From Leptogranulimonas caecicola (GTDB taxonomy: Bacteria; Actinomycetota; Coriobacteriia; Coriobacteriales; Atopobiaceae), in contig NZ_AP025285.1 in assembly GCF_023168405.1 (NCBI RefSeq), positions 1,672,001 through 1,736,000 on the forward strand: a stretch of DNA of 64,000 nt, written 5' to 3'. Of the stretch, positions 227 to 61,035 are shown in pieces. The translations under genes were made by a program, and so were the position numbers. Under the pieces are notes generated by a model. The model did no database searches. It had not been told where the DNA came from and saw only the letters and a list, made by a program, of their open reading frames with translations. Each line of letters starts with the position of its first letter. Positions within the stretch are counted from its first letter, which is position 1.

Positions 227-264
227 TTCCTTGCCGAGAAGCCCTCGCAACCGCTCATTGATCA

Positions 265-301
265 AGCCCGTTGAGCCCATGGCCCAACGGGCTTTCTTTT
301 T
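265..301 (+). terminator. Rho-independent terminator after pyk
   Basis: AGCCCGTTG (265-273) pairs with CAACGGGCT (285-293) around an 11-base loop and runs into a T-rich tail ending at 301. It closes the pyk transcript and marks the left edge of the acquired region. Confidence 0.9.
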
Positions 302-636
302 AGGCAAGCGAAGATCCATACCTACAGAAACTGCCTGCGAGTGAACCGTTAAAGGAACGCACAGGAATACCACGCAGATAAATGGCACAGCCAGTTCTGA
401 TGAAATAGAACATATAGGAACTAAGACGTCTTACGACCCAGAAGGTTATTTAGCTCTTTAATGGGCGCTTAGGGCAAGTGCGAAGATAGGGCTCTTGCGA
501 AAGATCCGGTACGTTCGCACCATAAATCGGTGATTCATGCTCATATCTTTATTGAGCATGAATCGAACACTATCTATGACACCAATCGATATGCCCCATA
601 TTGATAGCGTCTATTTGTATGCAACAATATGTTACA
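302..636. other. Gene-less stretch with an inverted repeat
   Basis: I see no credible gene between the pyk terminator and the first CRISPR-like repeat. The one structured element is a perfect 12-base inverted repeat, GATTCATGCTCA (532-543) and TGAGCATGAATC (553-564), separated by 9 bases. It has no T-tract, so it is not an ordinary terminator. It could be an integration-junction element or a regulatory hairpin. An attachment site might lie here, but no matching copy was found at the right-hand edge of the element. Confidence 0.5.
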
Positions 637-669
637 GTCGCTCCCCTCACGGGGAGCGTGGGTTGAAAC
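637..669 (+). repeat. Solitary type I-C-like CRISPR repeat, copy 1
   Basis: A 33-base unit starts GTCGCTCCCC and ends GTGGGTTGAAAC. Its palindromic core is CGCTCCCC, TCAC, GGGGAGCG. The length, the stem and the TTGAAAC end match the repeat class used by type I-C systems. No second repeat follows at spacer distance and no cas gene is in the window, so this is not an array. The next base after it belongs to the stop codon of the HNH gene. A near-identical copy lies at 5633-5665. Confidence 0.7.
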
Positions 670-1125
670 TTACCAGCGCTCAGGCGTCAGAGCCACGCTG
701 GTTTGCAGCTCACGAGTAAAGCCCACGCGCTCATGGACAACGTTGTGCGCGTAGTGAGAGAGCGGGATGAGGTTTCGCACCACTTGTCCTGTGTGCTTGT
801 CCATGGCCCACTCGCTCAAGGCGTAGCCCGGAGAGACGTTTGCCCTCAGCACATGGTGGACGGTGGTGGCTGGAACATACTTGGCCGGGGCCTCATAAAG
901 CTCTGCGATGGACTCGCCGTGAGCTTGCTCCAACACTTTCTTCCTCAGCCGTCTCCAGGCAGGCGACCTGTAGAAGTTCCTAAGGCATCCTTCGGTCTCC
1001 AACATGTGCGCCAGCTTGCGGGCCAAATCCGCATCATAGCAAGGGACGATCAAGGGAGGGGGGCCATAGAACCTCGCAGCCCAAATTGCATCAATGGAAT
1101 TCTGAGGATTCTGGGACAAGGCCAT
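670..1125 (-). CDS. Phage-type HNH endonuclease
   Basis: The 151-residue product has FYRSPAWRRLRKKVLEQ, then TVHHVL, then NLIPLSHYAHNVVHER. This is the order of the small phage HNH nucleases that usually sit beside terminase genes and help cut DNA during packaging. The zinc-binding cysteine pairs of many relatives are missing, so it may be a metal-light variant or a weakened copy. I start it at the ATG at 1125 because a GGGAAGG purine run precedes it; the frame stays open to 1179. The 3' end touches the solitary CRISPR-like repeat. The terminase expected next to it is absent, consistent with a decayed prophage. Confidence 0.65.
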   Translation of the reverse strand: MALSQNPQNSIDAIWAARFYGPPPLIVPCYDADLARKLAHMLETEGCLRNFYRSPAWRRLRKKVLEQAHGESIAELYEAPAKYVPATTVHHVLRANVSPGYALSEWAMDKHTGQVVRNLIPLSHYAHNVVHERVGFTRELQTSVALTPERW

Positions 1126-1209
1126 CTGCAACCCGCCTTCCCGCGAAACTCGACACCCTAACAATACACACTCGAACACCTGTTTTTTCAGAAATAGTTG
1201 TCAATTTCC

Positions 1210-1271
1210 GCAGTTTTCCGAACTTTCCGCAGAAGCTGTCAAAAAGCGCAGTTTTCCGCAAAAAGCGCAGT
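1210..1271. repeat. Interleaved direct repeats
   Basis: GCAGTTTTCCG occurs at 1210-1220 and again at 1248-1258. AAAAAGCGCAGT occurs at 1241-1252 and again at 1260-1271. The two words overlap at their ends, giving a compact block of repeated sites like a small iteron or regulator-binding cluster. No gene reads directly from it. Confidence 0.55.
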
Positions 1272-2011
1272 ATCGGGCGAGCGGTATTGACTTTTTTCAG
1301 AAATGAATATATAGCCATCTAGCTGGAGTTATCCCCTCATGACCACCAACGCCCTACCCTGTCCACCGGAGGGGTGGCCCTGATTTTGTCCATCGCATTA
1401 TTTGTCCCGTTGGTGTACAATGTGGCTTCCCTTAATAGATTTAGAAAAATAAAAAACAACAAAGCGAGGGAGAATCCGTAGGCTGGGCCGCCGGTCTTTG
1501 GGGGGTGAAACAAAAATTCTCAAACGACCCGGGGGTATAATATTTATCTATTTTTGGTGGATTTTCGTTCATTTTTTGTTTTTCTTTTTGCGCTTTTAGC
1601 TGTGCTTTTATGTTCGTGTTAATGATATTGATGTGATGCATTATGTGACGATATCGGAATTGCTAGCGTGCATATGTTGTTCATTTTGGTTGATTTATAT
1701 GTACTGTTTAGTCTCTTATGTTGTGTAATTGCAGATGTTTGGCGAACGTTCGTTCTATCCGAATTCGGATAGTTATGTATTTGCTATTGTATGTACTGTT
1801 TATGGGACTGTGATTTAGCATTTGTGCTGGTGGCGGCTATGTGTTTATGGTGGATAACTGTGAGCTTATGAGTGTGATCTGGTGCGCTCCCCCACATGTC
1901 CACTTGCGCCACTGTAGGGCTGGAATTAGGCATTTAGCTGGTGTTATGTGGTGTGGTGGTGGGCTGGTGCTGGTGCTGCTCTGGTGGTGTGGTGGCTCTG
2001 ATCTGATAGGC

Positions 2012-2039
2012 GCTCTAGGCTCTAGGCTCTAGGCTCTGG
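2012..2039. repeat. 7-bp tandem repeat (GCTCTAG)
   Basis: Three head-to-tail copies of GCTCTAG (2012-2032) and a fourth variant ending in TGG. The AT-rich and TGGTG-rich surroundings contain no gene. Confidence 0.7.
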
Positions 2040-2094
2040 TGATGATCTGGTGGCCTGGTGGCTCCCTGGTGAGCTAATGCGCTCCCTAGGCATG

Positions 2095-2128
2095 GAAAAA
2101 GCCCATAGGCTCTATAGGCCCATGGGCT
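2095..2128 (-). terminator. Terminator of the XRE gene
   Basis: Read leftward, AGCCCATGGG (2128-2119) pairs with CCTATGGGCT (2109-2100) with one mismatch and is followed by five or six T. It sits 28 bases after the stop of the leftward XRE gene. Confidence 0.8.
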
Positions 2129-2155
2129 ACGTGGTTGGTGTGTGCTGCCTGGTCG

Positions 2156-2416
2156 CTACTTTGTGATGATGGCTTGCACATGGTCGCTATCGTCTACTAG
2201 TGCAAGGCGTAATCCTACCTTTTGGCATATATCCGCATAAGTCGATAGAGTCGGAGAACGCCCGTCCCCTATAGATGATGAAATATATGTTGGGTATTTA
2301 CCTAGGCTTATCGAAAGTTTCCTGTATGAGTCGGCCTTATCGGCCACATATCGGAGCGCTTTATCAGCAGATAAGTATTCCAACTTCTCGCCTCCCTTGT
2401 CGTTTTTAACAATCAT
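2156..2416 (-). CDS. Small XRE-like DNA-binding regulator
   Basis: The 86-residue product has a helix-turn-helix of the Cro/XRE kind in its middle: LSISLGKYPTYISS, then a second helix reading SPTLSTYADICQKVGLRL. Such proteins are repressors of phages and integrative elements or antitoxins. Its gene diverges from the run of small phage genes, and the DNA upstream carries repeated ATACGTGTT sites, so autoregulation and repression of the rightward promoter are likely. A terminator follows it. The exact family could not be named. Confidence 0.65.
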   Translation of the reverse strand: MIVKNDKGGEKLEYLSADKALRYVADKADSYRKLSISLGKYPTYISSSIGDGRSPTLSTYADICQKVGLRLALVDDSDHVQAIITK

Positions 2417-2567
2417 ACGTGTTTATCTGCGCTGTTCATAGATACTACACAATTATACGTGTTTATCGCTAAAAACAATTTTTGCCTTATCTACCTGTGA
2501 TTTTGCTCCATTTTGGGCCATATGAACAAAATTTCGTGTTGACCTATAACACGTATTGTTGTTTACT
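2415..2567. promoter_or_regulatory. Divergent control region with three XRE-type operator sites
   Basis: ATACGTGTTTATC occurs at 2415-2427 and 2455-2467, exactly 40 bases apart. The same word in reverse, ATAACACGTAT, occurs at 2546-2556. The third site lies between a -35-like TTGACC (2539-2544) and a -10-like TTTACT (2562-2567), spaced by 17 bases, which would read rightward into the small-gene run. The first site overlaps the start of the XRE gene. This is the layout of a lysogeny-type switch. The operator role is inferred from position and repetition. Confidence 0.6.
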
Positions 2568-2643
2568 CTTAATCAGCCCAAGGGCAACCAGACCCAACGG
2601 CTCCGAACCTTGAAAACCGCATAGCAGACAGATTCAAAAGAAA

Positions 2644-2692
2644 AGGCGACCCACTAAAACCAACTTTTGAAGCTAGTTTCAGCGGGTCGCCT
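2644..2692 (+). other. Stem-loop ahead of the Fst-like gene
   Basis: AGGCGACCC (2644-2652) pairs with GGGTCGCCT (2684-2692), with further partial pairing inside. It lies about 45 bases upstream of the small toxin-like gene. It could be a leader structure, an attenuator or part of an antitoxin RNA; there is no T-tract after it. Confidence 0.5.
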
Positions 2693-2736
2693 AAAGGCCC
2701 ATTCGCTACTTAGGACCACGATTTAGGAGATGGAAA

Positions 2737-2886
2737 ATGATTGATCTGCTCCTCTACATTCTCCAACTCCTCATTGTCTTCCTCGTTCCAATCATTCAAG
2801 CGGTTGCAGCCGCTTTGATAGCTGATTGGCTGAAAGAAAGGAAGGCCACAACTTACGAGGGCAAACATTTTAAACCTCGTAAGTAA
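2737..2886 (+). CDS. 49-residue membrane peptide, Fst/Ldr-like type I toxin candidate
   Basis: The ATG at 2737 is preceded by AGGAGA at good distance. The peptide has one hydrophobic helix (about residues 4-29, LLLYILQLLIVFLVPIIQAV) and then ADWLKERK, ending in a short basic tail. Small Fst/Ldr/Lpt toxins share this plan: a single membrane helix with a P-I-I type break, then a D/H-W-L motif and a charged tail. In those systems a small antisense RNA blocks translation, and stem-loops sit on both sides here (2644-2692 and 2884-2936). No antisense promoter was proven. It could instead be a phage holin-like peptide. Confidence 0.55.
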   Translation: MIDLLLYILQLLIVFLVPIIQAVAAALIADWLKERKATTYEGKHFKPRK

Positions 2887-2936
2887 TGAGGGGGAGAAGG
2901 GCATCTGATAGGTGCTCTTCTCTCCTCCTCATATTA
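2884..2936 (+). terminator. Long hairpin after the Fst-like gene
   Basis: ATGAGG-GGGAGAAGGGC starting at the stop codon pairs, with bulges, with GCTCTTCTCTCC-TCCTCAT, followed by an AT-rich tail. It is likely the terminator of the toxin message or of an opposing antitoxin RNA. Confidence 0.55.
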
Positions 2937-2967
2937 CTACCGGACTAAACCAAAAGAAAGAGTTCAG

Positions 2968-3054
2968 ATGAACGGAATCGCCTTTAGCCTTGCTAGGCTT
3001 GCCGGTTCTATTGTCGCGCTTTTAGTCGCTTTACACCTTTATAGAAATCGCTAA
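2968..3054 (+). CDS. 28-residue membrane peptide
   Basis: The ATG at 2968 follows the purine-rich AAAGAAAGAG. The peptide is a single hydrophobic helix (LARLAGSIVALLVALHLY) with a basic end, RNR. Its gene sits between the Fst-like peptide and the next phage gene and runs in the same direction. No family was recognised. Its length makes chance a real alternative, but the ribosome binding site and the hydrophobic pattern favour a real gene. Confidence 0.4.
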   Translation: MNGIAFSLARLAGSIVALLVALHLYRNR

Positions 3055-3066
3055 TAGCTAGGAGAG

Positions 3067-3465
3067 ATGAAAATGACTACCAAAAAAGAGCAGCTAGTAA
3101 ATGCTATCGAAAACACGAAGCCTCGTTCTTGTTGAGATAAAGGGGTGAAGGCTCAGGCTTTGGAAATGGTGGAAGAGCTCGATGATGAAACCGTCGACAA
3201 GATAGCAAATAGCAACAGAAAAGAGGTGATGACCGTTCTCCTCAATGGTGCCGATAGCTGGAGCAAATATAGCTATGGTGGATGCGCATTAATCTACGAC
3301 CCTGAAATCTGCGAACGTTACTCCACTCCGTCAGAGATCAAGCGCACCAAATGCGGAGAGAAAAGGCCCAACGCTCGTGAAGAGTGGCTCGATGTGCAGG
3401 CCCGAGAATGCGCGCAGGCAGCATGGCTAACTTTTGGGGCGCTGCGTCACATCATTTCTGAATAG
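3067..3465 (+). pseudogene. Phage protein interrupted by an in-frame TGA
   Basis: An ATG at 3067 behind GGAGAG opens a frame that reads MKMTTKKEQLVNAIEN, then TKPRSC, hits TGA at 3133-3135, and continues in the same frame as DKGVKAQALEMVEEL to 3465. The two halves look like one protein of about 132 residues. My recollection is that related phage proteins read S-A-W-D-K-G-V at this point, so the TGA would replace a tryptophan codon. Either the gene is broken or TGA is read through. A GTG at 3145 could restart the second half. The function of the family is unknown to me. Confidence 0.55.
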
Positions 3466-3558
3466 CGTTTCCAGTCAGTCCACTGTAGCCAATGCAGCGG
3501 CCTGACATGGGGACACTACCCCACTAAATCCCAATCACAACTAAAGAGGGACATGGCC

Positions 3559-3891
3559 ATGACCAACAGCAACGCATGGGTAGAATTTGATGAGAACTTT
3601 GATTCTCGCGATGGTGGCGCGCTCTATATACGCGATAACAACGATGGAACATACAGCGCAGCTGGTGCGCTCTGGTTGGATGGGGGAGACATGCAAGAGC
3701 GCCACTATACAGCCATTGTTTGTGACTTTGATGACAACCAGCTCACCTATGGAGACGTGCTGGTTACCGACGAATATTTCGCCGGTGACGCATTTGGCTG
3801 TGCAATCGATAGCGACATATCCCACGACATAGGCATGTTCTCCACCATGGGCGAGGCTGTCCAGGCTGTCCACCAATTCGCGAATGCTTAA
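3559..3891 (+). CDS. Hypothetical acidic phage protein
   Basis: A 110-residue, acidic, soluble protein. AGAGGG lies 8 bases before the ATG at 3559, which I prefer over the in-frame ATG at 3553. It contains YIRDNNDGTYSAAGALW near the start and DIGMFSTMGEAVQAVHQF at the end. No cysteine cluster, helix-turn-helix or membrane segment is seen. It belongs to a rightward run of small genes, each with its own ribosome binding site, typical of the accessory part of a phage genome. The function is unknown. Confidence 0.6.
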   Translation: MTNSNAWVEFDENFDSRDGGALYIRDNNDGTYSAAGALWLDGGDMQERHYTAIVCDFDDNQLTYGDVLVTDEYFAGDAFGCAIDSDISHDIGMFSTMGEAVQAVHQFANA

Positions 3892-3940
3892 TCAACACCA
3901 CGACCAACGTTCAAAAATTAGCCAGTAGAAAGGCACTACC

Positions 3941-4120
3941 ATGCTGCTTACCGACACCAACCTTTACCGCACTGTCCGTGACTACTGCGTAGACTACTAC
4001 GACGATGAAACCATCCTCGACATCGCCAGCGCCATTGTAGAGCGCGACCTCGCAGGATGGGATGACACCATCGATGACATAGCCAGCGAGGACTTCGAGG
4101 CATTTATTCAAGAGTTTTAG
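3941..4120 (+). CDS. Hypothetical 59-residue acidic protein
   Basis: The ATG at 3941 is preceded by AGAAAGG. The product is strongly acidic, with many Asp and Glu, and reads DYYDDETILDIASAIVERD, then WDDTIDDIASEDFEAFIQEF. The acidic, helical character recalls small phage anti-host or DNA-mimic proteins, but no family is recognised. It sits in the same rightward run as its neighbours. Confidence 0.6.
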   Translation: MLLTDTNLYRTVRDYCVDYYDDETILDIASAIVERDLAGWDDTIDDIASEDFEAFIQEF

Positions 4121-4215
4121 CGTCTCTAAGCTGTCCATCGTCGGGCATGGTGGGCAGCAATAGGGACACTGAGCGCCCATAACAATCCAACAACAGCCAA
4201 AGAGAAAGAGACGCC

Positions 4216-4485
4216 ATGGCCACTACTCGAGAGCAGATTGTCGACATTGTCCTCAACGACCCCATCCGCACGCCGTGGACTGGCACCGCCAACAGCATTG
4301 TTGTTCACAACAGCGCCAGCCATCAAATGGAGCTTTATGGCCCAACCACCAGCCATGGGTGGACACGCCTTAATGACTTGGGCATCACGCCAGACGAGGC
4401 GGCAAATTTAGGCATGACCACCAGCGGAAGGAATCGGCTTGGATTGCTAGGAGACAAGACGGCAGCACTGTACGCAAGCCTATAG
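4216..4485 (+). CDS. Hypothetical phage protein
   Basis: An 89-residue soluble protein starting at the ATG at 4216 after GAGAAAGAGA. The N-terminus reads MATTREQIVDIVLNDPIRT and the C-terminal half LGITPDEAANLGMTTSGRN. It has the same gene spacing and purine-rich leader as the other small genes of this run. No domain is recognised. Confidence 0.55.
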   Translation: MATTREQIVDIVLNDPIRTPWTGTANSIVVHNSASHQMELYGPTTSHGWTRLNDLGITPDEAANLGMTTSGRNRLGLLGDKTAALYASL

Positions 4486-4537
4486 CCACCACTAGCCACT
4501 AAATAACCATCAACGCAACGCAATAAAAGGAGCCATC

Positions 4538-4858
4538 ATGACCGCCACCAAGCAAATAAGCCAGCTCAACCATGGAAGGCAGCTGCTTGCCAGCCTCAGC
4601 CACGAGCTTATCTACTTCCTAATACTCAACACCTTCAGGACGAAGCGTGACATAGACGAACTCATTGATACGGTTCGCGCTGACAACGACACTACTTTGT
4701 CCAGCACCGACGCTCGCGACATCCATGCCTTCCTATCAAGCCTTGAGGATGCTTTTTGGAATGAGGTAGAGCTTCACGAAGAGCTCGACATGGAATTCAA
4801 CGGATACGACAACGGATACGAATACACCGATTTCATCATGTCCACCATTGCGCAATAG
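4538..4858 (+). CDS. Hypothetical phage protein
   Basis: A 106-residue protein behind AAAAGGAG, the best ribosome binding site of the run. It begins MTATKQISQLNHGRQLLASL and ends with an acidic, tyrosine-rich segment, FNGYDNGYEYTDF. The predicted structure is mostly helical. No function can be assigned. It is the last gene before the RelBE-like module. Confidence 0.6.
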   Translation: MTATKQISQLNHGRQLLASLSHELIYFLILNTFRTKRDIDELIDTVRADNDTTLSSTDARDIHAFLSSLEDAFWNEVELHEELDMEFNGYDNGYEYTDFIMSTIAQ

Positions 4859-4886
4859 CCATCGCGCTGCAGAGCAATCAATAGGG

Positions 4887-4910
4887 TATAATGTGTTACG
4901 TGTATTACAC
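4887..4910 (+). promoter_or_regulatory. Promoter and likely operator of the relBE module
   Basis: A consensus -10, TATAAT (4887-4892), is followed by GTGTTACGTGTATTACAC, an imperfect palindrome with GTGT and ACAC arms, and then AAAGGAGG. Antitoxins of this class usually bind such a palindrome to repress their own operon. No clear -35 was seen. Confidence 0.55.
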
Positions 4911-4926
4911 TAAAGGAGGCAATCAA

Positions 4927-5163
4927 ATGGCAACCATCGCAACGACAATGAGGGTACCTGATGATGTCGCCGCTCGATACGATCGACTGGCTAAAGCCAC
5001 TGGACGTACAAAAACCTTTTACATGACAAAAGCTCTCAGGGATGCTATCGACAGCATGGAATACGAATACGGAATCCTTCAAGAGCTTGAGGACTACCGT
5101 TCAGGTAAAACAGTTGCCTACAGCTCAGAAGAAATGAGGGCGCGCTGTGGCCTGGATGGTTAA
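4927..5163 (+). CDS. RelB-type ribbon-helix-helix antitoxin, copy 1
   Basis: A 78-residue protein. TTMRVPDDVAARYDRLAKAT is the strand and first helix of a ribbon-helix-helix domain; the C-terminal part (ILQELEDYRSGKTVAYSSEE) is the toxin-binding tail seen in RelB/DUF6290-type antitoxins. I start it at the ATG at 4927, 7 bases after AAAGGAGG. Its last 17 bases overlap the toxin gene in another frame, the usual coupling of such pairs. It should neutralise the RelE-like product and repress the shared promoter. A second copy lies at 8495-8731. Confidence 0.85.
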   Translation: MATIATTMRVPDDVAARYDRLAKATGRTKTFYMTKALRDAIDSMEYEYGILQELEDYRSGKTVAYSSEEMRARCGLDG

Positions 5164-5416
5164 GTATCTCCCTAAGGCCGACAAATCCCTGCGCAAGATG
5201 GATAAGCAGACATCCAAGCTCATTCTCGACCGCATGGATGAGATCGCAGCACTTAACGACCCAAGAAGCCGAGGCAAGGCACTAGAGGGAACCCTGACGG
5301 GGTTTTGGCGTTATCGTATAAACGGTTATCGTGTGATATGTTCCATCGAAGATAGCGAGTTGGTCATTCTCGCGGTATCCGTCGACCATCGGAGCAAAGT
5401 TTACAAACGTCACTAA
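5147..5416 (+). CDS. RelE/ParE-family toxin, copy 1
   Basis: An 89-residue basic protein. It begins MAWMVKYLPKADKSLRKMDK from a GTG inside the antitoxin gene, the normal RelE start (W-x-V-x-Y). The core ends GFWRYRINGYRVICSIED, then VDHRSKVYKRH. RelE toxins cut mRNA in the ribosomal A site; the family fold uses basic residues such as those in WRYRINGYRV. It is intact here, unlike the copy at 8715. A terminator follows directly. Confidence 0.85.
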   Translation: MAWMVKYLPKADKSLRKMDKQTSKLILDRMDEIAALNDPRSRGKALEGTLTGFWRYRINGYRVICSIEDSELVILAVSVDHRSKVYKRH

Positions 5417-5425
5417 ACAGAAATA

Positions 5426-5457
5426 GCCCTGACTGCCATCATGACAGCCAGGGCATT
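5426..5457 (+). terminator. Terminator of the relBE module
   Basis: GCCCTGACTG and CAGCCAGGGC form an imperfect stem followed by ATTTTTG. A sister hairpin without the T-tract follows the decayed second copy of the module. Confidence 0.8.
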
Positions 5458-5632
5458 TTTGTGCGCATCGTTAATCCTCAGCACCACCAACGCCAGCAAT
5501 GCAGCCGCCATAGCCAGCACCATCCATGATTTCCATTGCAGTGTTGTACATCTGTCGTATTGTGGTTTCTGGCACCAGAAACACCATCGCAAGCTCTTTC
5601 CAGCTGCACCAATTTGCGCATCCCAGCCATAC

Positions 5633-5665
5633 GTCGCTCCCCTCACGGGGAGCGTGGGCTGAATC
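5633..5665 (+). repeat. Solitary type I-C-like CRISPR repeat, copy 2
   Basis: The same unit as at 637-669 with two differences near its 3' end (GGGCTGAATC instead of GGGTTGAAAC). The stem CGCTCCCC/GGGGAGCG is intact. Phage head-protein sequence begins right after it, in frame but without the expected N-terminal part. About 215 bases separate it from the relE stop; that stretch contains only the terminator and no clear gene. Confidence 0.65.
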
Positions 5666-6690
5666 ATTCTATCCTCGGCCTCTTGAGACCAGCGAGATGG
5701 CCGAGAAGGCTGGACGAGTAGGCCATTACCAGGCAGGAAAGCTTACCAAGCAAAATGTTGACGGCTTCATCCAGCAGATGGCCAAGTCCACCGGGGGCCA
5801 AGTTCGCCGCACTGCCAGCATGACGGTGGCAGGCATTACGGGAGCGCAACCAAAACACTCAAAGATCCGTTACGCCCGAGCGCTCCAAGGGCTGGAGTCT
5901 TGCGGCTGGTGCTTCATGCTTGCCAGCAGAGGATTTGTCTACCGCTCAGAGGAAGCTGCCTCGCACTCCCATCGCGGGTGCAAGTGCGTCGTCATGGCAG
6001 GCAGAGAGGGCGACACCATTGAGGGCTATGACCTAGAGGGTATTCAGGATCGCTACAACAAAGTCGCCAAGGCCTGTGGGGGTGGACATCTTCACCGACA
6101 AGGACACCCGCTTAGACCAGCTCTCGAGAGAAGACTACGACCGCATCGCTCGCTTTGCCGAGCTACACGATCCTGAGTGGCTTTCAAGGGGCATTTTGCC
6201 AACCATCGACTATCGATACACCAGTAGAGAAGAAATAGAACACTCAATGGATTCCGTCAACCTTTCTACCATTGATTTCTTAAGGGATGAGGGCTTTAAG
6301 ATCACTCCAAGACCCCCTCATGCAATCGGTAAAAATGGGAAGGTGCTGGATGGTGTGACAAATCCCGACATCTACATTAATAACTCGGAAATATGGGAGA
6401 TTAAGCACAGAGCCGCATCTAATCCTGGACGAAAAAATGGGAAACTGACTTTTGTGTACAACTCCCTCCATGGTGGCAAGAAAAACTTTCGCAATGTCTA
6501 TGACCCAGACAAAAAAATTGGGACAGGCCCCGCCGATAAAATAAGAATTATTTTGGATGTTGGACCACACGAGATAAATGCCACGAACAAAGAGATTGAA
6601 GACTATATAAAGAAAGAAATGAAGTTCAACAATATTGATGAGGTATTGGTGATCTATCCCGATAAAAGTTTGGGATTCTATAAAAAATAA
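5666..6690 (+). pseudogene. MuF-type phage head protein fused to a nuclease toxin domain, truncated and frameshifted
   Basis: The first part reads AEKAGRVGHYQAGKLTKQ, RTASMTVAGITGA, ARALQGLESCGWCFMLASRG and HRGCKCVV. This is the C-terminal part of a MuF-like minor head protein; the N-terminal part is missing at the CRISPR-like repeat. The frame changes at a run of five G (6078-6082). Removing one G joins KVAKACG to VDIFTDKDTRLDQL without a stop. The second part ends in a toxin-like domain with DIYINNSEIWEIKH, a D...E-x-K nuclease signature seen in CdiA-type tRNA nucleases. MuF-toxin fusions are known in temperate phages. A GTG at 6076 could start the toxin part alone. No immunity gene is recognised beside it. 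Confidence 0.65.
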
Positions 6691-6776
6691 AGGCCGGAGC
6701 AATACTCGTAGCCTGAGTAAAACCTCGACCTTTTGATATCTAGTATACCCCATCTGCAGAGTACTAACAATCATAG

Positions 6777-6850
6777 TTTCCGCTGGTCTAACGGCAAGAC
6801 GTTGGATTCTGGTTCCAAAGATCGGGGTTCGGCTCCTCGGCGGAAAGCCA
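6777..6850 (+). tRNA. tRNA-Gln (CUG anticodon), phage-borne
   Basis: All arms fold perfectly. The acceptor is TTTCCGC/GCGGAAA, the D stem GTCT/AGAC and the anticodon stem TTGGA/TCCAA, with loop TTCTGGT giving anticodon CTG (6809-6811). The T stem is CGGGG/CCTCG with loop TTCGGCT. Discriminator G and an encoded CCA (6848-6850) follow. The usual A58 of the T loop is G, which is unusual. It lies 86 bases after the toxin-domain frame and is followed by its own terminator, so it is probably expressed. Confidence 0.85.
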
Positions 6851-6863
6851 TCTCGTTGAATCA

Positions 6864-6886
6864 AGCGCCTCAAGGGCGCTTTTTTC
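6864..6886 (+). terminator. Terminator after tRNA-Gln
   Basis: AGCGCC and GGCGCT pair around a 5-base loop and are followed by TTTTTTC, 14 bases after the encoded CCA. Confidence 0.85.
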
Positions 6887-6987
6887 ATAGCCACGCAGCC
6901 TTGGGCGGAAACCAAGGCGCCTACCTTGCTGGCAGGGAAAGCCAGCTCGACCACGTCTGAGCAGACGGACTAGCAGAAAGGACGGTT

Positions 6988-7437
6988 ATGGAATTTCCCA
7001 TCGAGAACCAGGAGGCCTTCGACGCCGCCATCAAGGAGCGCCTGGCCCGCGAGCGCAAGAAGGCAGAGGAGCGATTCTCCGACTACGACGATCTTAAGGC
7101 CAAGGCCGCAAAGCTGGACGAGCTGGAGGAGGCCGACAAGACCGAGCTTCAGAAGGCCCAGGAAGAGATCGCCAGCCTCAAGAAGGCCCAAGAGGACCGA
7201 GCCAAGGCTGACGAGGCAGCAGAGACCCGCGCCAAAGTGGCCAAGGCCACAGGCATCCCCGAAAGCCTCGTCTTCGGCGACGACGAGGATTCCATGACCA
7301 AGAACGCCGAGGCTATCGCGGCTTACGCCAAGCCTCCGGCAGCGCCACCTCTTGGGGAGGCGGGAAGCCACAGCGACGGCTCGGCTTCCAACGACAACCC
7401 CATGGCGTTGGTGCTGCCAAGCCTGTTTGGAAACTAA
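6988..7437 (+). CDS. Phage scaffolding protein (DUF4355-like)
   Basis: A 149-residue, highly charged protein. Residues 10-85 are a coiled coil rich in Lys, Glu and Ala (ERLARERKKAEERFSDYDDL, then AKLDELEEADKTELQKAQEE). It is followed by ATGIPESLVFGDDEDSM and a loose C-terminal tail. Size, order of parts and position just before the major capsid gene fit the phage scaffolding/DUF4355 class, which guides capsid assembly and is then removed. The ATG at 6988 follows AGAAAGG. Codon use is close to the host's, unlike the AT-richer toxin parts. Confidence 0.75.
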   Translation: MEFPIENQEAFDAAIKERLARERKKAEERFSDYDDLKAKAAKLDELEEADKTELQKAQEEIASLKKAQEDRAKADEAAETRAKVAKATGIPESLVFGDDEDSMTKNAEAIAAYAKPPAAPPLGEAGSHSDGSASNDNPMALVLPSLFGN

Positions 7438-7459
7438 CGACTAGCGAAAGGAGCCATAC

Positions 7460-7924
7460 ATGGCTGCTGCAACCACTGCGAAAGTGAAACTCCCGGCCGA
7501 TGTGGTGACCACCCTGCTTCCCAAGATCCAGGGCAACTCAACCATCGCCACTCTGTCTCCCCGCAAGCCCCAGACCTTCTCCGAGCACGAGAACATCATC
7601 TTCACCCCCACGGCCGAGGCCGAGGTGGTCGAAGAGGGCGCTACCAAGTCCAGCTACGAGGTAGGCACCAGCTTCGTCCAGGGCGTCCGCGTGAAGCTGC
7701 AGACCACCACCCGTGTCACCGAGGAGCTCCAGTGGGCCGACGAGGACGACCAGCTGGAGATCATCGACAACATCCAGAAGGACCAGGCCGGTGCCATCGG
7801 CCGCGCCCTGGACTACGTGGTCTATCACGGCATCAACCCCGCCAAGAAGACCGCCCTTGCCTCCAGCTATCCCAAGCTGGTGGGTGCCACCGGCGCACCG
7901 CTCTTCCCCTCTATCTGCACATGA
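7460..7924 (+). pseudogene. HK97-type major capsid protein, C-terminally truncated
   Basis: The 154-residue frame starts 10 bases after GAAAGGAG and reads LPADVVTTLLPKIQGNSTIA, then PRKPQTFSEHENIIFTPTAE, then EELQWADEDDQLEIIDNIQK. This is the start of an HK97-fold phage major capsid protein (usual length about 300). The family resemblance ends near KLVGATGAPLFP, where foreign sequence encoding a second toxin fragment begins, and the frame stops within a few codons. A deletion or recombination has replaced the second half of the capsid gene, so no working capsid can be made. Confidence 0.75.
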
Positions 7925-7925
7925 C

Positions 7926-8255
7926 ATGCTTTCTCGGGCAGGGATTCCTGTAGCCACCCATGATCGCGCTCAGCTTGATATTAATATCGGCGATGAGCTG
8001 TGGGAAATAAAACCCCTGATGGCGACTCCGTTAGGTGTGTCGAAAGCAGTCTCAGGAGGGCGAAAAAAACAGTTCGCTGATCGGTTCGGCTCTGGAACCA
8101 CCATAAAAGTAGTACTTAACTTTCGCTATGTCGCAAAGATTTCTGATGATGAAAATCGAAAAAGGCTTGTCTTAGAGATGCAACGCCATGAAGTATCAGA
8201 GGTGATCTTAATCAATAAGGATGGCACAGTAGAGTTTTTGTTTTTCGCACAGTAG
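7926..8255 (+). pseudogene. Orphan CdiA-like nuclease toxin fragment
   Basis: In a different frame from the capsid gene, this 109-residue stretch reads MLSRAGIPVATHDRAQLDIN, then GDELWEIK, and ends EVSEVILINKDGTVEFLFFA. The D-x-N...E-L-W-E-I-K signature matches the toxin domain of the MuF fusion at 6076-6690, although the two domains otherwise differ. No ribosome binding site precedes it. It looks like a toxin tail displaced from a larger carrier gene. Its base composition is poorer in G+C than the capsid gene it abuts. It might still be expressed by readthrough or coupling, but a relic is more likely. Confidence 0.55.
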
Positions 8256-8299
8256 AAAGGTGTTGTGAAGTCCCTTTCCAGAGTCATCACAACACCTTT
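8256..8299 (+). terminator. Terminator after the orphan toxin fragment
   Basis: AAAGGTGTTGTGA (8256-8268) pairs perfectly over 13 bases with TCACAACACCTTT (8287-8299). It starts at the base after the toxin stop codon. A degenerate copy of part of this hairpin recurs near 8420-8455. Confidence 0.75.
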
Positions 8300-8323
8300 G
8301 TGTATTTAAAGCTATCACAGCAC

Positions 8324-8394
8324 ACCTCGCTAGTCCAACGGAAGGATGTTGGTCCCCAAAACCGTCGATCGGGGTTCGACTCCTCGGCGAAAGG
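8324..8394 (+). pseudogene. Decayed tRNA-like sequence (Trp-like, CCA anticodon)
   Basis: It aligns with the tRNA-Gln at 6777 through the T arm (CGGGG, loop TTCGACT, CCTCG) and the D arm (GTCC/GGAT). The anticodon loop reads CCCCAAA, placing CCA (Trp) at the anticodon, but position 33 is C instead of T. Only four of seven acceptor pairs form and no CCA end is encoded. It is probably a degraded phage tRNA. It again sits just downstream of a toxin fragment. Confidence 0.5.
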
Positions 8395-8494
8395 TAAGCT
8401 CGCCATCGAGCTGCGAGGCGCTGTGAAGTCCTTCTCCGGACCCATCACAAACAAGGCATAAAGAATTACGCATTTTACAAAGGGAGGTAGCGCC

Positions 8495-8731
8495 ATGGCA
8501 ACCACTGCAACCACCCTGAGGATACCTACCGATCTCGCCGCTCGTTACGAGCGCTTGGCAAAGTCTACGGGGCGCACCAAAACCTACTACATGGCAAAGG
8601 CACTCCAGGATTCCATCGATAGCATTGAATATGAATACTGTCTATTGCAAGATCTCGAGGACTATCGTTCAGGTAAAGCCGTTGCCTACAGCTCAGAGAA
8701 AATGAGGAAGCGCTGTGGCTTGGACGGTTAA
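8495..8731 (+). CDS. RelB-type antitoxin, copy 2
   Basis: A 78-residue paralogue of the antitoxin at 4927. It shares TLRIPTDLAARYERLAKSTG, GRTKTYYMAKALQDSIDS and the C-terminal EDYRSGKAVAYSSEKM tail. GGGAGG precedes the ATG. The antitoxin is intact while its toxin partner is destroyed, so it is an orphan that could still act on the first module's toxin or promoter. The pair shows that the whole module was duplicated within the element. Confidence 0.8.
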   Translation: MATTATTLRIPTDLAARYERLAKSTGRTKTYYMAKALQDSIDSIEYEYCLLQDLEDYRSGKAVAYSSEKMRKRCGLDG

Positions 8732-8818: not shown

Positions 8819-8824
8819 AAAAAC

Positions 8825-8855: not shown

Positions 8856-8858
8856 GCT

Positions 8859-8894: not shown

Positions 8895-8973
8895 ATCGCG
8901 ATCTAACTCAGCAACCATCCAATTGCTTTCGCTTGCCTTCGACTGCAGATCTTCTCAGCACCCCCGCGATCTC

Positions 8974-52966: not shown

Positions 52967-55120
52967 TTACGCATGCTCCTTGATGGCCTCGCGCACCCGC
53001 GCCTGTTGGCGTTTGCCCAAACCGCGCAGGGTGCGGCCATGGCTAATGGACTCCTGGTCCATAAAGGCTTGGGCACGCTCATGGTCCCAGCCGGGAAGCG
53101 CCGCCAAAAGCTGGATCACCGGAATGGAGCGCGCCAAGTCGTCCACAGCGTCCATGAGATCGAGGGCAGAGACTTTACCGGCAGAGACGTTGGCCAAGAG
53201 GCCTTGGCGCTGCTGCTCCGTCTCGCGACGATGCTGGCGGGACGCCTTGGCTTTGGATGCTTTGGACTGGGAAGGCTCAGCGCTCGCGGCTTCTGGCTGC
53301 TCGGCAGGGACAACCTCTGGCTGCTCAGAGGCCCCCTGGGGAGAGTCAGGGGTTACTGCCGCATCAGCAGCCTCAGCGCCCTTGGAAGCCGCGGCTTTCA
53401 CGCGCGGCTTGCGAGTGCGGCGGCGGGTGCGTTTCTCGGGCTCTGGAGCAGCCGCGTCTTCGCTGGTTGCTACCGCCTCAGGGGCTGCGGCGGCGTCCTG
53501 AGCTGAAGGCGCGGGCTTCTCGGCAGCTTGAGACGTGGCGGGAGCAGGCGCGGCTTTGGCAGGCGCAACGCTGGCACTCGCAGGCTTTTGAGTAGCTGCA
53601 ACTTTTTTAGATTGGGTGTGAGCTGAGGTTTCCTCTTGTGCAGAGGCGGCCGCGGGGGCTTCGGCGCGAGAAGGGGCGTTTTGGCGCGCCTGACGCTTGT
53701 AGGTACCCTCGTTGGAGCGGCGGGCACGGCTGCGCGAGGCAGCGCGCGCGGGCGCGGGCGCAGGCTTGGGTTCCTCGGCGGCGCCGCGGCCCTCCGGAAG
53801 GGCCATGGCGGCGTCCACGTCGTAGTCGGAGAAGAGGTCCAGCGCCACGATCTCCTGCTCCAACTTGACGTTTCGCTCCAGCATGTAGGAGACCAGGCCG
53901 CGGTAGCGCTCGTACTCCAAAAGGCGCGCCAACAGATCGCGGTCTTTGGAAGTGAGCGGGTGAATGGCCTTGCGGTAGGAGGGGTTGGCCAGCTCGGCGA
54001 TGCCCATGTGAAACATGCCCACCTCGCAGCCCAGAGTCTCCTCGATCACCCTATGGGCCTTGATGCCCGCATAGTCGATGTCGCCAAAGTGCGCGAACTC
54101 CACCTGAGGGTTTTGCTCGTGGATCATGCGCAGCAAGGCGCGATGGCGCGGAGACACCGACCCCTCCGTGTAGATATAGACGTCGTCGCCGTTGCAGCGG
54201 CGGTAGGCGTCCAGGTTCTCCACGGTGATGATGCGGCTGGCACGCACGTAGGAGCGGTCGATGTTGGGCAGGTCCACATCGAACATGGAAATGCCGTTGG
54301 GCAGGATGGAGGCGTCGATGGCGCCCCTATCGGTGATCAGAACGATGGGGCCTTTGATGCAGATGGTCTTAAGATCTGCAATGACTCCCGCGTCGGTGAG
54401 CGCCCCTTGGTTCGACGAGGCAGAGTTCTTGCGGCGCAGCGTAGAGGCCAGGCGCTTGAGGCCGGTCTTGTCGATCTTCTTGGTGTCGCCGGTCACCAAA
54501 AGCGACAGCTCGCGAGGGGTGAGAGGGGCGTCCACCTCCTCCAAATACTCGCAGGCTTCCCGGGTGATGCGTGGGTCCACAGGACCAGAGCCGCGGCGTC
54601 CCCGACCCCTGCGAGGCCGCGACGACCCACTGGATGCGCTTTCATCCGCACTCTCGCCGGACGGCGCTTCCTCGGCGCCCTCAGAGGGGCCAGGTTTTTG
54701 AGCTCCTACCTCCTCCAACGCCCCATAGGCCTCAGACACCTCGGCCTCCGAGGCCTCGTCCTCCTCGGCAGAGGCAGCCTGCTGACGCTCCCTATAGGCT
54801 GCCTCCCGCGCTTCCTGCTCGAGCCTGCGCTCGAACTTGGCCAGCTCGGCGGCTGCGGCCTCGGGGTCTTCCAGCACAATGGAGTCCACGTAGGTGGCGC
54901 CGTCGCGGCGAGATTTCTTCATACGCACGATGCGCAGGCTCTCCAACGACTGCACTGCCGAGAAAAAATGCGCTGCCTGCTTGCGCTCTGCCTGGGTGTC
55001 CCGCTCGCCATAGTGGGGCAGGATGTCTTGAGGCGCCAGCTCAACAGCCTCATTATCGTGCGCCGCTTCGTCACACAGGCGCAGCAATAGTTCATATTTA
55101 AATGTATCGGTTTGTTTCAC
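52967..55120 (-). CDS. TOPRIM (DUF2220/JetD-like) protein fused to an actinobacterial IHF domain
   Basis: A 717-residue protein starting at the GTG at 55120 after GGAGGT. Residues 1-110 are a helical, probably winged-helix domain. After an acidic linker, residues 185-440 contain a TOPRIM-type core with ITVENLDAYRR (Glu301) and HFGDIDYAGIKAHRVIEETL (Asp347, Asp349), like the JetD nuclease subunit of Wadjet. Residues 445-625 are an Ala/Pro linker with basic blocks (EKRTRRRTRKPRVK). Residues 630-717 match mycobacterial integration host factor: IPVIQLLAALPGW, then GRTLRGLGKRQQARVREAI. No JetA, JetB or JetC genes are nearby. It may be a DNA-cutting or DNA-organising factor; the function is inferred. 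Confidence 0.7.
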   Translation of the reverse strand: MKQTDTFKYELLLRLCDEAAHDNEAVELAPQDILPHYGERDTQAERKQAAHFFSAVQSLESLRIVRMKKSRRDGATYVDSIVLEDPEAAAAELAKFERRLEQEAREAAYRERQQAASAEEDEASEAEVSEAYGALEEVGAQKPGPSEGAEEAPSGESADESASSGSSRPRRGRGRRGSGPVDPRITREACEYLEEVDAPLTPRELSLLVTGDTKKIDKTGLKRLASTLRRKNSASSNQGALTDAGVIADLKTICIKGPIVLITDRGAIDASILPNGISMFDVDLPNIDRSYVRASRIITVENLDAYRRCNGDDVYIYTEGSVSPRHRALLRMIHEQNPQVEFAHFGDIDYAGIKAHRVIEETLGCEVGMFHMGIAELANPSYRKAIHPLTSKDRDLLARLLEYERYRGLVSYMLERNVKLEQEIVALDLFSDYDVDAAMALPEGRGAAEEPKPAPAPARAASRSRARRSNEGTYKRQARQNAPSRAEAPAAASAQEETSAHTQSKKVAATQKPASASVAPAKAAPAPATSQAAEKPAPSAQDAAAAPEAVATSEDAAAPEPEKRTRRRTRKPRVKAAASKGAEAADAAVTPDSPQGASEQPEVVPAEQPEAASAEPSQSKASKAKASRQHRRETEQQRQGLLANVSAGKVSALDLMDAVDDLARSIPVIQLLAALPGWDHERAQAFMDQESISHGRTLRGLGKRQQARVREAIKEHA

Positions 55121-55356
55121 GGAGCGACCTCCAAGCCGCCGGTCGAACTACATGGGTGTGCCCCAAGGCACAGTCTCTTAGTGTATACCGTACTATCGCC
55201 CCAGGTAAAACGCCCGTCCTTAAAAAGGGTGCCGAGAAGCACAGACCTTCAAAAGACCGGGCGATCATCTGCACACGCATCATCGAGCCAAAGTTGGGGC
55301 ATCAAGAGCCGCCGGAGGCTATCCTGCGAGGTCGCAGCGCGGAGCTGCCAGCGCGC

Positions 55357-56358
55357 CTAGAGCCCCTCGCGGGTCTTGGCATGGCAGGCAGCACCCACCA
55401 TGCCTGCCAGATTGCCCATGGTGGCCTCCACAATGGGAGTGTCGGCGCAAGTAGGCAGCGTGGCAGCCCTATAGGCTTCGAGAAGCTCGGGGCCAAAGAG
55501 GTCAAAGGCTGCGCTGATGCCTCCGCCAATGACAAACGCCTCGGGGTCCAGGGCACAGGCCAGCATGCCCAACGCGCGGCCCAGATAGCCGCTGTACTGG
55601 CTGATGGCCGCCTGAGCCACCGGGTCGCCGGTGCGGGCGGCGTCGAAGATAGGCAGCGCATGGGCGTCGTGCTCCAGGGGCACAGGGTCCTCGCCGGCGG
55701 CCTCGCAGGCGGCCCGATAGAGATAGACCAGGCCACGGGACGAGGTGTACATCTCAAGGCAGCCCTGTTGGCCGCAGTTGCACTGGCGGCCGCCTGGCTC
55801 CACCACGATATGGCCTATCTCGCCGGCACCGCCGCTGCGCCCCACCGCCACCGCGCCGTCAAAGACCATGCCGCCGCCCACGCCGGTGCCCAGCGTCACA
55901 AAGACCAGGTTGCGCGCACCTTCGCCGGCACCCTTCCACATCTCGCCCAAAGCGGCAGCGTTGGCGTCGTTCACCGGGTAGACCTTCACGCCCATGACGC
56001 GCTCCAGCGCCAGGATGAGGCCTTCCAGGTCCACATCCACATTGGGAGCCATGAGCAGGGTGTCTTCTGCAGTCACCACTCCAGGGAGCGCCAAGCCCAC
56101 GGCGGCTACCTGCTGCTGAGGCTTGAGGTTCTCGGCAACGATGGCCTGGACCTGCTTGGCCGCCTCTAGCACCTCTTCGCCGGTGCGCATGGACTTGGTG
56201 CGCACGGCGTCCCTGGCCTGCACCACCCCGTCCAAAGTGACCAGAGCCACCTTGACGGTGGTGCCGCCCACGTCGATGCCCACCAGCAGACGCTCCGGGC
56301 CACCGGCGCCGTCCACATCCTCTGTCACACCAAGAATCTCAACCAACGTCTGGGACAT
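55357..56358 (-). CDS. ROK-family sugar kinase (glucokinase-like)
   Basis: A 333-residue protein taken from the ATG at 56358 after AGAGGAGGAAGC. The phosphate loop is LLVGIDVGGTTVKVALVTLD. The zinc-binding ROK motif is GHIVVEPGGRQCNCGQQGCL followed by E. VNDANAAALGEMWKGAGEG and VFVTLGTGVGGGMVFDG complete the ATP and sugar sites. It phosphorylates glucose or a related hexose such as ManNAc or GlcNAc. It is the last gene of the aminotransferase-ddl-ROK group, 66 bases after ddl. Confidence 0.9.
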   Translation of the reverse strand: MSQTLVEILGVTEDVDGAGGPERLLVGIDVGGTTVKVALVTLDGVVQARDAVRTKSMRTGEEVLEAAKQVQAIVAENLKPQQQVAAVGLALPGVVTAEDTLLMAPNVDVDLEGLILALERVMGVKVYPVNDANAAALGEMWKGAGEGARNLVFVTLGTGVGGGMVFDGAVAVGRSGGAGEIGHIVVEPGGRQCNCGQQGCLEMYTSSRGLVYLYRAACEAAGEDPVPLEHDAHALPIFDAARTGDPVAQAAISQYSGYLGRALGMLACALDPEAFVIGGGISAAFDLFGPELLEAYRAATLPTCADTPIVEATMGNLAGMVGAACHAKTREGL

Positions 56359-58692: not shown

Positions 58693-58911
58693 AGCTCTCC
58701 TTTCAACGCTATCCACTCTATCAGCGTTGGAGTCTCATTTTGCTGCCGAGAAAAACGTCCATCCCCAATGGAAAGCTTAGGTGGGGTCAGAGGGGTTTTA
58801 TGAGGGGTAGGATGAGCCCAGACATCCCTTGTAGGGAGGGTGGGTTTATCGGCATTTGTTGATGCATGAGATGTGCCCGCCTCCCCTGCCCCATCGAGTT
58901 AAGGAGCCTCT

Positions 58912-60486
58912 ATGGCGCATTTGGACCTTCAAGACACTCTGGCCGCCCTCGATGCCTTGGAGCTGAGGCGCTACGGGCTTCGCTACGGCATGATCAGCGC
59001 CCTCTGGCTGGCAGAGACCGCCGACCCCGCCGCCTGCGCCCACAACCGCGGCGAGGCCATGGCTACCCTGCAGGAGGACGACCGCCAACTGCTGTGTGGC
59101 GAGGAGAGCCAGGCCATCGTGACCCAGCTAGAAGCCCACAAAAGCCAGCTGGACTTCTTCCGCGCAGCCCAGCTGCGCGTCATGGATCGCGACCAGCAAG
59201 AGCAGTTGCGCATCCCGGCCCCACTGGCAGGCCGCATCGCCCGCCTTACCAACGAGGCCACCGACGCCTGGAAGCGCGCCAAGCAGAACGATTGCTGGGA
59301 TGACTTTGCCCCCTATCTGGATCAGCTGGTGGCCGCTTCCAAAGAGATGGCGGTGGCGCTGAATCCTGAGGCAGACCCCTACGACACACTGCTGGACCTC
59401 TTTGAGCACGGCACCAGCCGCGCCTTCTACAACGCCTTCTTCGACCAGCTCAAGGCCACCGTGGTGCCCCTGGTGGCTGCGGTGACAAAGGCGCCTCAGC
59501 TCTCGAACGAGTGCATGCGCGGCTACTTTGACCCCGCCGTGCAGTGGGAGCTCTCTCGCGATCTGGCAACCTCGGAGGGCGTCGACCCTCAAAAGCTGGT
59601 GTTGGGCCAAACAGAACACCCCTTCTCCGACGCCATCGACTCTCAGCATGTCTTCATCGCTACCCACATCTACCCCGACGACCTGCTCTCCAACGTCTTC
59701 TCCATGCTCCACGAGGGCGGCCACGCCATGTACGAGGCCGGCGTGGACCCCGCCTACGACCTCACCTGCCTCCATGGAGGCACCTCCATGGGCATGCACG
59801 AGGCCCAGAGCCGCTTCTTCGAGAACCTGGTGGGCCGTGACCGCGCCTTTGCCAAGCCGCTTTTGGCCCTTTTGACCTCCCACTTCCCCGAGCAGCTGGC
59901 CTCCGTCACGCCCGATGAGTTCTTCCTGGCCGCCAACCGCGTGGAGCCCAGCCTGGTGCGCACCGAGGCCGACGAGCTCACCTACCCCCTCCACGTCATG
60001 GTGCGCTACGAGATCGAGAAGCAGCTCTTCGACGGCAGCCTCACCGCGGCCCAGGTGCCCGAGGTATGGGCCCAGCTCTACCGCTCCTACCTGGGCGTAG
60101 AGGTTCCCGACAACCGCCGCGGCGCCCTCCAGGACGTCCACTGGTCCCAGGCCTCCTTTGGCTACTTCCCCACCTATGCCCTGGGCAGCGCCTACGGCGC
60201 CCAGTTGCTGCATGCTCTCAAGGCGTCCCTGGCAGCCGACGGCACCAGCTGGGAAGAGGTGCTGGCCTCTGGCGACCTGGCCCCCGTGCGCGCTTGGCTA
60301 AAGGACCACATCTGGCATTGGGGCCGAGCCAAAGAGCCCGCCGAGCTTATCTTGGAAGCCACCGGCGAGCCCTTTGACGCCCGTTTTTACTGCGACTACC
60401 TTGCCGAGAAATACACCCGCCTCTATAGCCTCAATCCCTTGATCCTCGACCCCAAGCTTGATGGCAATCATCCTGCGAACACCTAA
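58912..60486 (+). CDS. M32-family metallocarboxypeptidase
   Basis: A 524-residue protein. The zinc site is [20 protein letters not shown] (His267-Glu268-x-x-His271), followed by [20 protein letters not shown] with the third ligand Glu. The C-terminus DFGYF-type segment appears as [20 protein letters not shown]. These are the HExxH, HES/GTSMG-H-E-A-x-S-R and G-Y-F-P-T-Y motifs of M32 carboxypeptidases such as Taq carboxypeptidase. It trims C-terminal residues of peptides in the cytoplasm. AAGGAG precedes the ATG at 58912. The dtd gene follows after 10 bases in the same transcript. Confidence 0.92.
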
Positions 60487-60496
60487 GGAGGGGCCC

Positions 60497-60943
60497 ATGC
60501 GCGCATTGCTGCAGCGAGTAAGCCAAGCCCAAGTCACCGTAGACGGCCAGGTCACCGGGGCCATTGGCAATGGGTTCCTCATCCTTTTGGGAGTGGGGCC
60601 TGATGACACGCCCCAGATCGCCGAGCGCCTCTGGGACAAGATTCGCCGCCTGCGCGTCTTTGACGATGCGGTCGGCAAGATGAATCTGTCGTTGGAGGCG
60701 GTGGGCGGCAGCGTGCTGGTGGTGAGCCAATTCACCCTCTACGCCAACTGCCGCCGCGGCAATCGCCCCGGCTTTACCGACGCCGCAAAGCCAGAGCTCG
60801 CAAACGAGCTCTACCAGCACTTTTGCCAGATAGCTGCCTGCGACGTGCCGGTGAAGACCGGCATCTTCGCCGCCGAGATGCAGGTGTCGCTCATCAACGA
60901 CGGCCCCATCACCATTTGGCTGGACACCGACGACCTGTTTTAG
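60497..60943 (+). CDS. dtd: D-aminoacyl-tRNA deacylase
   Basis: A 148-residue protein starting [20 protein letters not shown] after AAGGAGGGG. The two catalytic motifs are [17 protein letters not shown] and [11 protein letters not shown] (the family's N-x-G-P-x-T). It removes D-amino acids from mischarged tRNA. Its pairing with a carboxypeptidase gene is unusual but explained by simple operon sharing. The length is normal. Confidence 0.95.
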
Positions 60944-61035
60944 CTGCTGGCTGGGATGCACGGGCTTCTCGGCATATTGACAGCGCAAGGGGCCTTGAGC
61001 TTCCGGTGGCGATGGCTGGGTTTCTCGACAGCAAA

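Follow-up and report, generated by a model that had tools for sequence, protein, structure and literature searches.

Why does one nine-base word recur in such number, on both strands and inside as well as between genes, in a 64-kb stretch of the Leptogranulimonas caecicola chromosome? The stretch, called the window in the following, comprises positions 1,672,001–1,736,000 of a genome that forms one contig of 2,001,235 bases, and the word is TGCCGAGAA, which a first-pass annotation of the window had singled out as a possible DNA uptake signal. Judging from sequence comparison, we consider it likely that TGCCGAGAA forms the core of an uptake sequence for DNA, that is, a self-recognition tag for natural transformation, in this lineage of the family Atopobiaceae. 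Of what that earlier proposal implied, the motif, its presence on both strands, an intergenic excess, inverted pairs, dialects among relatives and the com genes were found; the expected type of receptor was not, and the scarcity of the word in prophage DNA is suggestive. The anatomy of the word fits uptake sequences in most points, and Chi sites, segregation sites and regulatory sites poorly.

The window holds 31 exact copies of TGCCGAGAA, 19 on the plus and 12 on the minus strand, where 0.78 are expected from 100 dinucleotide shuffles (largest count, 3) and 1.03 from a third-order Markov model. A fifth-order model fitted to the same 64 kb expects 6.0, much of the word having already entered the model itself; higher-order models fitted on the same DNA account for more of the count, since they contain TGCCGAGAA. 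The first-pass annotation had counted 29 copies against about 0.5 expected, so that the enrichment stands and the figures are to be corrected; its copies on both strands and its about ten intergenic places (ten by our gene calls) are confirmed. It had further placed only three copies in a surface operon; there are four within these 8.9 kb (about 28830–37747), where the genome average would give 3.3, and the operon is therefore not depleted. In the following list all words are exact matches, the intergenic ones rest additionally on gene calls and the divergent pair on an analysis of pairs; the final entry is a contrast region outside the signal.

232–240, plus strand, uptake-like word, intergenic
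8993–9001, minus strand, uptake-like word
11031–11039, plus strand, uptake-like word
12437–12445, plus strand, uptake-like word
13694–13702, minus strand, uptake-like word
15962–15970, minus strand, uptake-like word
20408–20416, minus strand, uptake-like word, intergenic
20598–20606, plus strand, uptake-like word, intergenic
24078–24086, minus strand, uptake-like word
25222–25230, minus strand, uptake-like word, divergent pair with 25263
25263–25271, plus strand, uptake-like word, divergent pair with 25222
27934–27942, plus strand, uptake-like word
28543–28551, plus strand, uptake-like word
28639–28647, plus strand, uptake-like word, intergenic
28696–28704, plus strand, uptake-like word, intergenic
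32685–32693, plus strand, uptake-like word
35424–35432, minus strand, uptake-like word
36113–36121, plus strand, uptake-like word
37222–37230, plus strand, uptake-like word
39497–39505, plus strand, uptake-like word, intergenic
41660–41668, minus strand, uptake-like word, intergenic
46771–46779, minus strand, uptake-like word
47850–47858, plus strand, uptake-like word
52028–52036, plus strand, uptake-like word
53517–53525, minus strand, uptake-like word
54956–54964, plus strand, uptake-like word, the sole window copy without C at position 13
55230–55238, plus strand, uptake-like word, intergenic
56129–56137, minus strand, uptake-like word
58744–58752, plus strand, uptake-like word, intergenic
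60402–60410, plus strand, uptake-like word
60966–60974, minus strand, uptake-like word, intergenic
63077–63117, no strand, hairpin with perfect 17-bp arms and two facing variant words TACCGAGAA, probably a terminator
241–8992, no strand, stretch free of the word and containing a prophage remnant with fragments of scaffold and capsid

The enrichment is not confined to the window, as the first-pass annotation had allowed it might be: the whole genome contains 733 copies, 363 forward and 370 reverse, and the word read backwards, as a control, occurs 23 times (11 and 12 per strand). In a first sample of 464 kb, made up of twenty spaced 20-kb stretches and the window, 444 9-mers occur 30 times or more, and TGCCGAGAA has the highest z-score among them (171 versus 7.1 from a third-order Markov model); the sample was extended to 596 of the 2,001 kb overall. 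The word is thus strongly over-represented genome-wide and on both strands, as expected for uptake sequences.

The conserved sequence does not end with the ninth base. In the window, 29 of the 31 copies have A or G at position 10, as had been noticed before, and 30 have C at position 13, which had been overlooked; among the 171 copies of the 464-kb sample the respective numbers are 159 and 162, and genome-wide 623 of the 733 copies have the form with both, TGCCGAGAARNNC. The flanks were read from intergenic copies, because coding should not shape them there; in 82 such copies C was found at position 13 in 80, at position 11 in 57, at position 17 in 58 and at position 21 in 53, and G at position 28 in 41. 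The full motif is therefore TGCCGAGAA-R-N-N-C followed by a C-rich tail, which continues more weakly to about position 29. The commonest near-misses of the core also keep C13, namely 35 of 39 for TACCGAGAA, 86% for TGCCGATAA and 89% for AGCCGAGAA, with lower shares for GGCCGAGAA (71%) and CGCCGAGAA (56%). A weight matrix of 24 positions finds 449 sites of at least 14 bits in the 596 kb versus 16 in simulated DNA, by proportion roughly 1,450 per genome. Such an extended consensus is expected for uptake sequences. A mobile repeat element is not supported: no two of 213 copies have the same 25-base flank, identical flanks being what was compared, so that the word is not a recent mobile repeat.

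A frequent tripeptide might create such a word as a by-product of coding, if Ala-Glu-Lys were spelled GCC GAG AAR under the codon bias of the organism. Indeed, of the 171 sampled copies 64 are read in the Ala-Glu-Lys frame, 6 fall in the other sense frames and 38 are antisense, the remaining 63 being intergenic, and in 516 kb this is the spelling of 83 of 101 Ala-Glu-Lys occurrences. However, when the codons of the genes in these 516 kb were shuffled synonymously 200 times, with the protein and the codon use of each gene kept, 9.8 sense and 2.7 antisense copies were expected versus 74 and 42 seen, and 4.1 and 1.0 versus 60 and 38 for the 13-base form. Between genes, where the third-order model expects about 1.6 copies, there are 75, and these lie in 107 kb, versus 116 in the 409 kb within genes. 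Moreover, GCC GAG AAR is preceded by T in 58 of the 83 cases, and in 54 of these 58 the next codon ends in C. With 25 shuffles the same control was clear in the congener (G004; relatives are labelled by G-numbers), in G048, G033 and G185, and went in the same direction with small counts in G013 and G002. The enrichment is hence independent of coding, as expected for uptake sequences, and does not vanish once codon and Ala-Glu-Lys use are modelled, whereas its disappearance there would, by the first-pass annotation, have refuted the proposal; within the 516 kb examined a coding by-product is refuted and has next to no chance of being the explanation.

Polarity with respect to replication was not seen: the best split of the chromosome into two arcs gives an excess of 34, which 79 of 100 orientation shuffles reached (216 copies in the 596 kb). 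A polar word is rejected for these sampled copies, and both a Chi-like and a segregation word are disfavoured by the lack of polarity. A Chi-like word that protects from, or redirects, a nuclease of the RecBCD/AddAB type would share with TGCCGAGAA the short and very frequent core and would suit the few copies in a prophage (see below); yet known Chi words have 5–8 bases, the motif here extends at least to position 13 and, with its tail, to about 29, and the copies are denser between genes than within, all of which makes this account unlikely. Very unlikely is a site of chromosome maintenance or segregation, be it KOPS-like or bound by a nucleoid-occlusion or nucleoid-structuring protein. The word is dispersed over the whole genome and conserved between congeners, as such a site would be, but it follows no clear chromosomal trend (0.26–0.43 words per kb of sampled length in 250-kb bins, the lowest being the bin with the prophage), and its dialects at position 3 and near-absence from whole genera, described below, would be unusual for an essential site.

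Conservation was assessed in 201 kb aligned with G004, the sole congener in the sample, at a mean identity of 92.4%. Of the words of the window genome 59 of 72 are intact in the congener, and 59 of 70 in the reverse direction; in the same alignment any 9-mer is intact in 58.9%, and 345 of the 519 sites of 300 permuted words are intact. Identity is 93–100% at the word positions and 75–93% at the 25 positions directly upstream; thus the words sit in rather variable DNA yet are kept themselves.

The intergenic excess could also reflect a dispersed regulatory element, either a transcription factor site or a hairpin terminator, the more so as some inverted pairs are perfect hairpins (e.g., the one at 63077–63117). 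Against this, only 27 neighbouring pairs within 70 bp exist among 394 strong sites, 21 of them inverted versus 6 co-oriented, and genes contain many copies in either orientation (84 sense and 49 antisense in the called genes of the 596-kb sample). The 82 intergenic copies are distributed over tandem (43), convergent (19) and divergent (16) gaps, with 4 unclassed, roughly in proportion to the space available (76.4, 23.7 and 19.0 kb, respectively). A role as terminator only or promoter only is not favoured by these pairs and gap classes, and a regulatory element of either kind is highly improbable.

Among relatives, 297 genomes of the order were searched for the 9-mer and two 13-mers, TGCCGAGAARNNC (with TGCC) and TGGCGAGAARNNC (with TGGC). 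G048 is taken as Lancefieldella parvula (formerly Atopobium parvulum) of the family Atopobiaceae; since it belongs to the same family, f1, as the window genome, f1 is taken as Atopobiaceae. Within the genus TGCCGAGAARNNC and TGGCGAGAARNNC number 623 and 5 here and 626 and 8 in the congener, and the balance is the opposite in L. parvula (80 and 304), G043 (109 and 424) and G013 (102 and 313); mixed genomes are G271 (331 and 244), G151 (254 and 159) and G185 (241 and 119), and other families of the order contribute G002 (543 and 16) and G169 (125 and 75). At least 100 copies of both 13-mers together were counted in 51 of the 91 f1 genomes. Words found de novo as k-mers are the same in L. parvula, G185, G033 and G013, and C13 accompanies 90% of 73 TGGCGAGAA in L. 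parvula, 89% of 27 in G013 and 88% of 95 TGNCGAKAA in G185. In a sample of 198 genomes of the phylum, none of the 184 from outside the order exceeds 24 copies of the 13-mer. From the dialect counts, therefore, an inner core CGAGAA-R-N-N-C emerges, with position 3 as the main difference between lineages; lineage dialects around a common inner core are what is expected for uptake sequences.

At the other end stand the word-poor genomes. Those of the genera g5, g19 and g21 (8 genomes) have 7–19 copies, none of five 13-base spellings was found in 80 kb of G064 (g5), and where other families have word-poor genomes, R10 and C13 occur together in a low proportion of the 9-mers (e.g., 22 of 68 for G018 and 7 of 38 for G019). 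A search for own words in word-poor G064, G116, G120 and G267 revealed no convincing dialect among the top k-mers (60–80 kb each), which were local repeats, hairpin repeats or coding-like words. The 80 kb of G116, a word-poor member of the Atopobiaceae, contain two dispersed hairpin repeats, one with GGGTACTCCC in 15 copies and a second with GATGTACCCG and GGGGAGTATCCCC in 14 copies. G002 (family f3, 3.3 Mb) has 767 words, nearly all TGCC, and 27 and 23 were counted in the other two genomes of f3 that were searched; horizontal gain or retention may account for the words of G002.

Competence machinery is present in the host, though it is not discriminating. Of the genes that the first-pass annotation had proposed to look for, comEA (912,216–913,061; HHH and SLBB domains) runs into comEC (to 915,429; TIGR00361 above cut-off and a metallo-beta-lactamase-like domain), and dprA lies at 1,144,678; the minor-pilin receptor it had expected was not matched. 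A Tad locus at about 1,654.3–1,663.4 kb, 8.7 kb upstream of the window, encodes the TadA ATPase, two T2SSF proteins (read as TadB/C), two TadE-like proteins, CpaB and a ParA-like protein; a peptide of 76 residues appears Flp-like by eye only and has no match in Pfam or NCBIfam. A small pilus-like set is found at 369,616–373,769 (a PilC-like protein, four short pilin-like proteins, one with DUF4860, and a PilT-family ATPase).

Several observations weigh against an uptake sequence. Genes were called with a home-made dicodon caller, not a standard one, which is a weak point. The conservation between congeners (82%) is only moderately above that of the permuted words (66%). Within f1, 40 of the 91 genomes have fewer than 100 copies of both main 13-mers together, and in G002 C13 is weaker (68% of 19 TGCCGAGAA). 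ComEC was found in 24 of 24 genomes and DprA in 19 of 19, word-poor ones such as G064 included, and the T2SSF pair occurs in word-poor genomes too, so that neither these core com genes, which were rejected as separators of word-rich from word-poor genomes, nor this pair is tied to the word by its presence. An N-methyl type IV pilin (PF07963) has no match in this genome and was matched in 2 of 12 genomes, and a PilT-type ATPase above cut-off was present in 7 of 25 genomes and in only 3 of the 15 word-rich ones examined (word-rich by our own sorting of the 13-mer counts).

In prophage DNA an uptake word would be expected to be sparse. A prophage at about 1,392.8–1,430.7 kb (matches to integrases, terminase, head, tail and holin among ten proteins scanned) has 2 copies in 37.9 kb versus 13.9 expected, but the P of 1e-4 is too kind because the region was noticed for being word-poor. 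The remnant in the window, with scaffold and capsid fragments among eight proteins scanned, has no copy in 8.8 kb between the words at 232 and 8993, as the first-pass annotation had stated, versus 3.2 expected, which alone is weak (P 0.04), and an 18-kb block around the G004 version of it has two words versus 5.2. Scarcity is, moreover, not unique to phage DNA, since a 29-kb stretch (1,495,826–1,524,790), the genes of which were recognised by eye as housekeeping and transport genes, contains a single copy and is as poor as the prophage; the data suggest that the word is scarce in prophage DNA, but the picture is not clean. As to viral relatives of the prophage, two matches at 34–36% identity were obtained, one query had no match, and these were not used. 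In G004 the shared remnant is adjoined by what resembles, by eye, a type I-C CRISPR-Cas set (about 1,026,181–1,034,115), and the aligned place in the window genome is without it.

What machine, then, might read the word? A type IV pilus was rejected as the common one, given how few genomes have the PilT-type ATPase above cut-off; a weaker match is present in 25 of 25 genomes and, in those with a known Tad locus, falls on its ATPase. All 13 genomes searched for T2SSF proteins have them, 8 of these only as a pair, read as TadB/C. Because PilT and N-methyl pilins are patchy and T2SSF proteins are in all, Tad together with ComEA/ComEC (ComEA having been read in this genome and G004) is the common candidate machine.

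We infer the following course of events. A surface or membrane DNA receptor, which might be the Tad (Flp) pilus, its TadE-like minor subunits or ComEA, would bind TGCCGAGAA-R-N-N-C and the C-rich tail on free DNA, and DNA of the same or a near species would then be pulled in preferentially. A single strand would be imported through ComEC and passed on by DprA to recombination; as the preferred fragments would replace resident alleles, copies would spread and be maintained by biased uptake and recombination. Drift of the receptor would lead to the dialects of the genera, which would in turn be barriers between lineages.

Among known systems, the DNA uptake sequences (DUS) of the Neisseriaceae come close: PMC3630211 describes hundreds to thousands of copies, intergenic and genic, with inverted pairs, dialects around an invariant core and some members of the family without them. 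The word here resembles DUS, as portrayed there, in copy number, genic and intergenic placement, inverted pairs, dialects on a shared core and family members without it; in contrast, its core is CGAGAA-R-N-N-C rather than the DUS core CTG, its tail is long and C-rich, the host is regarded as a Gram-positive actinobacterium, and no N-methyl pilin of the ComP kind was matched in the genome. With neither the DUS core nor ComP, it is not a Neisseriaceae DUS. For the uptake signal sequences (USS) of the Pasteurellaceae, the literature gives 1,465 exact cores in Haemophilus influenzae (PMC7811141), versus 733 copies here, two dialects in the family (PMC12616744) and an orientation bias within genes (PMC2346458); in these respects, and in the 9-base core with its conserved downstream extension, the two are alike, the bias here being that of the sense and antisense counts given above. 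Unlike USS, the word has another sequence, a C-rich rather than A/T-rich extension and a Gram-positive host; lacking the GCGGT inner core and the A/T tracts, it is not a Pasteurellaceae USS. In an actinobacterium, Micrococcus luteus, Tad genes are required for transformation according to PMC4322843, and the combination of Tad genes with comEA-comEC is shared, whereas the small PilC/PilT-type set is an addition of the window genome; an uptake sequence was not among the things that a term search found mentioned in that study (PMC4322843).

One paper names Pasteurellaceae and Neisseriaceae as the two families with strong uptake sequence preferences (PMC7811141), and in another sequence-specific uptake is called an outlier (PMC12040237). 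Among the matches listed in the open-access literature there was no report of such a word in Coriobacteriia or Actinobacteria, which does not prove absence. On balance, with a slight inclination, we favour the view that this is a third, independently evolved code of DNA self-recognition, a signal of 13 to 29 bases whose genus dialects extend over Atopobiaceae and some few further Coriobacteriales. Its reader would be ComEA or a subunit of the Tad pilus rather than a type IVa minor pilin, and it would keep related species apart as a barrier to gene flow; to our knowledge, it would be the first such code in a Gram-positive (monoderm) group. If true, this third case, in the Actinomycetota, would mean that self-recognition evolved again without an outer membrane. 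It would offer a natural handle for genetics in Coriobacteriia, and the origin and drift of such words would become directly testable, because related genera with strong, mixed and near-absent words have all been sequenced.

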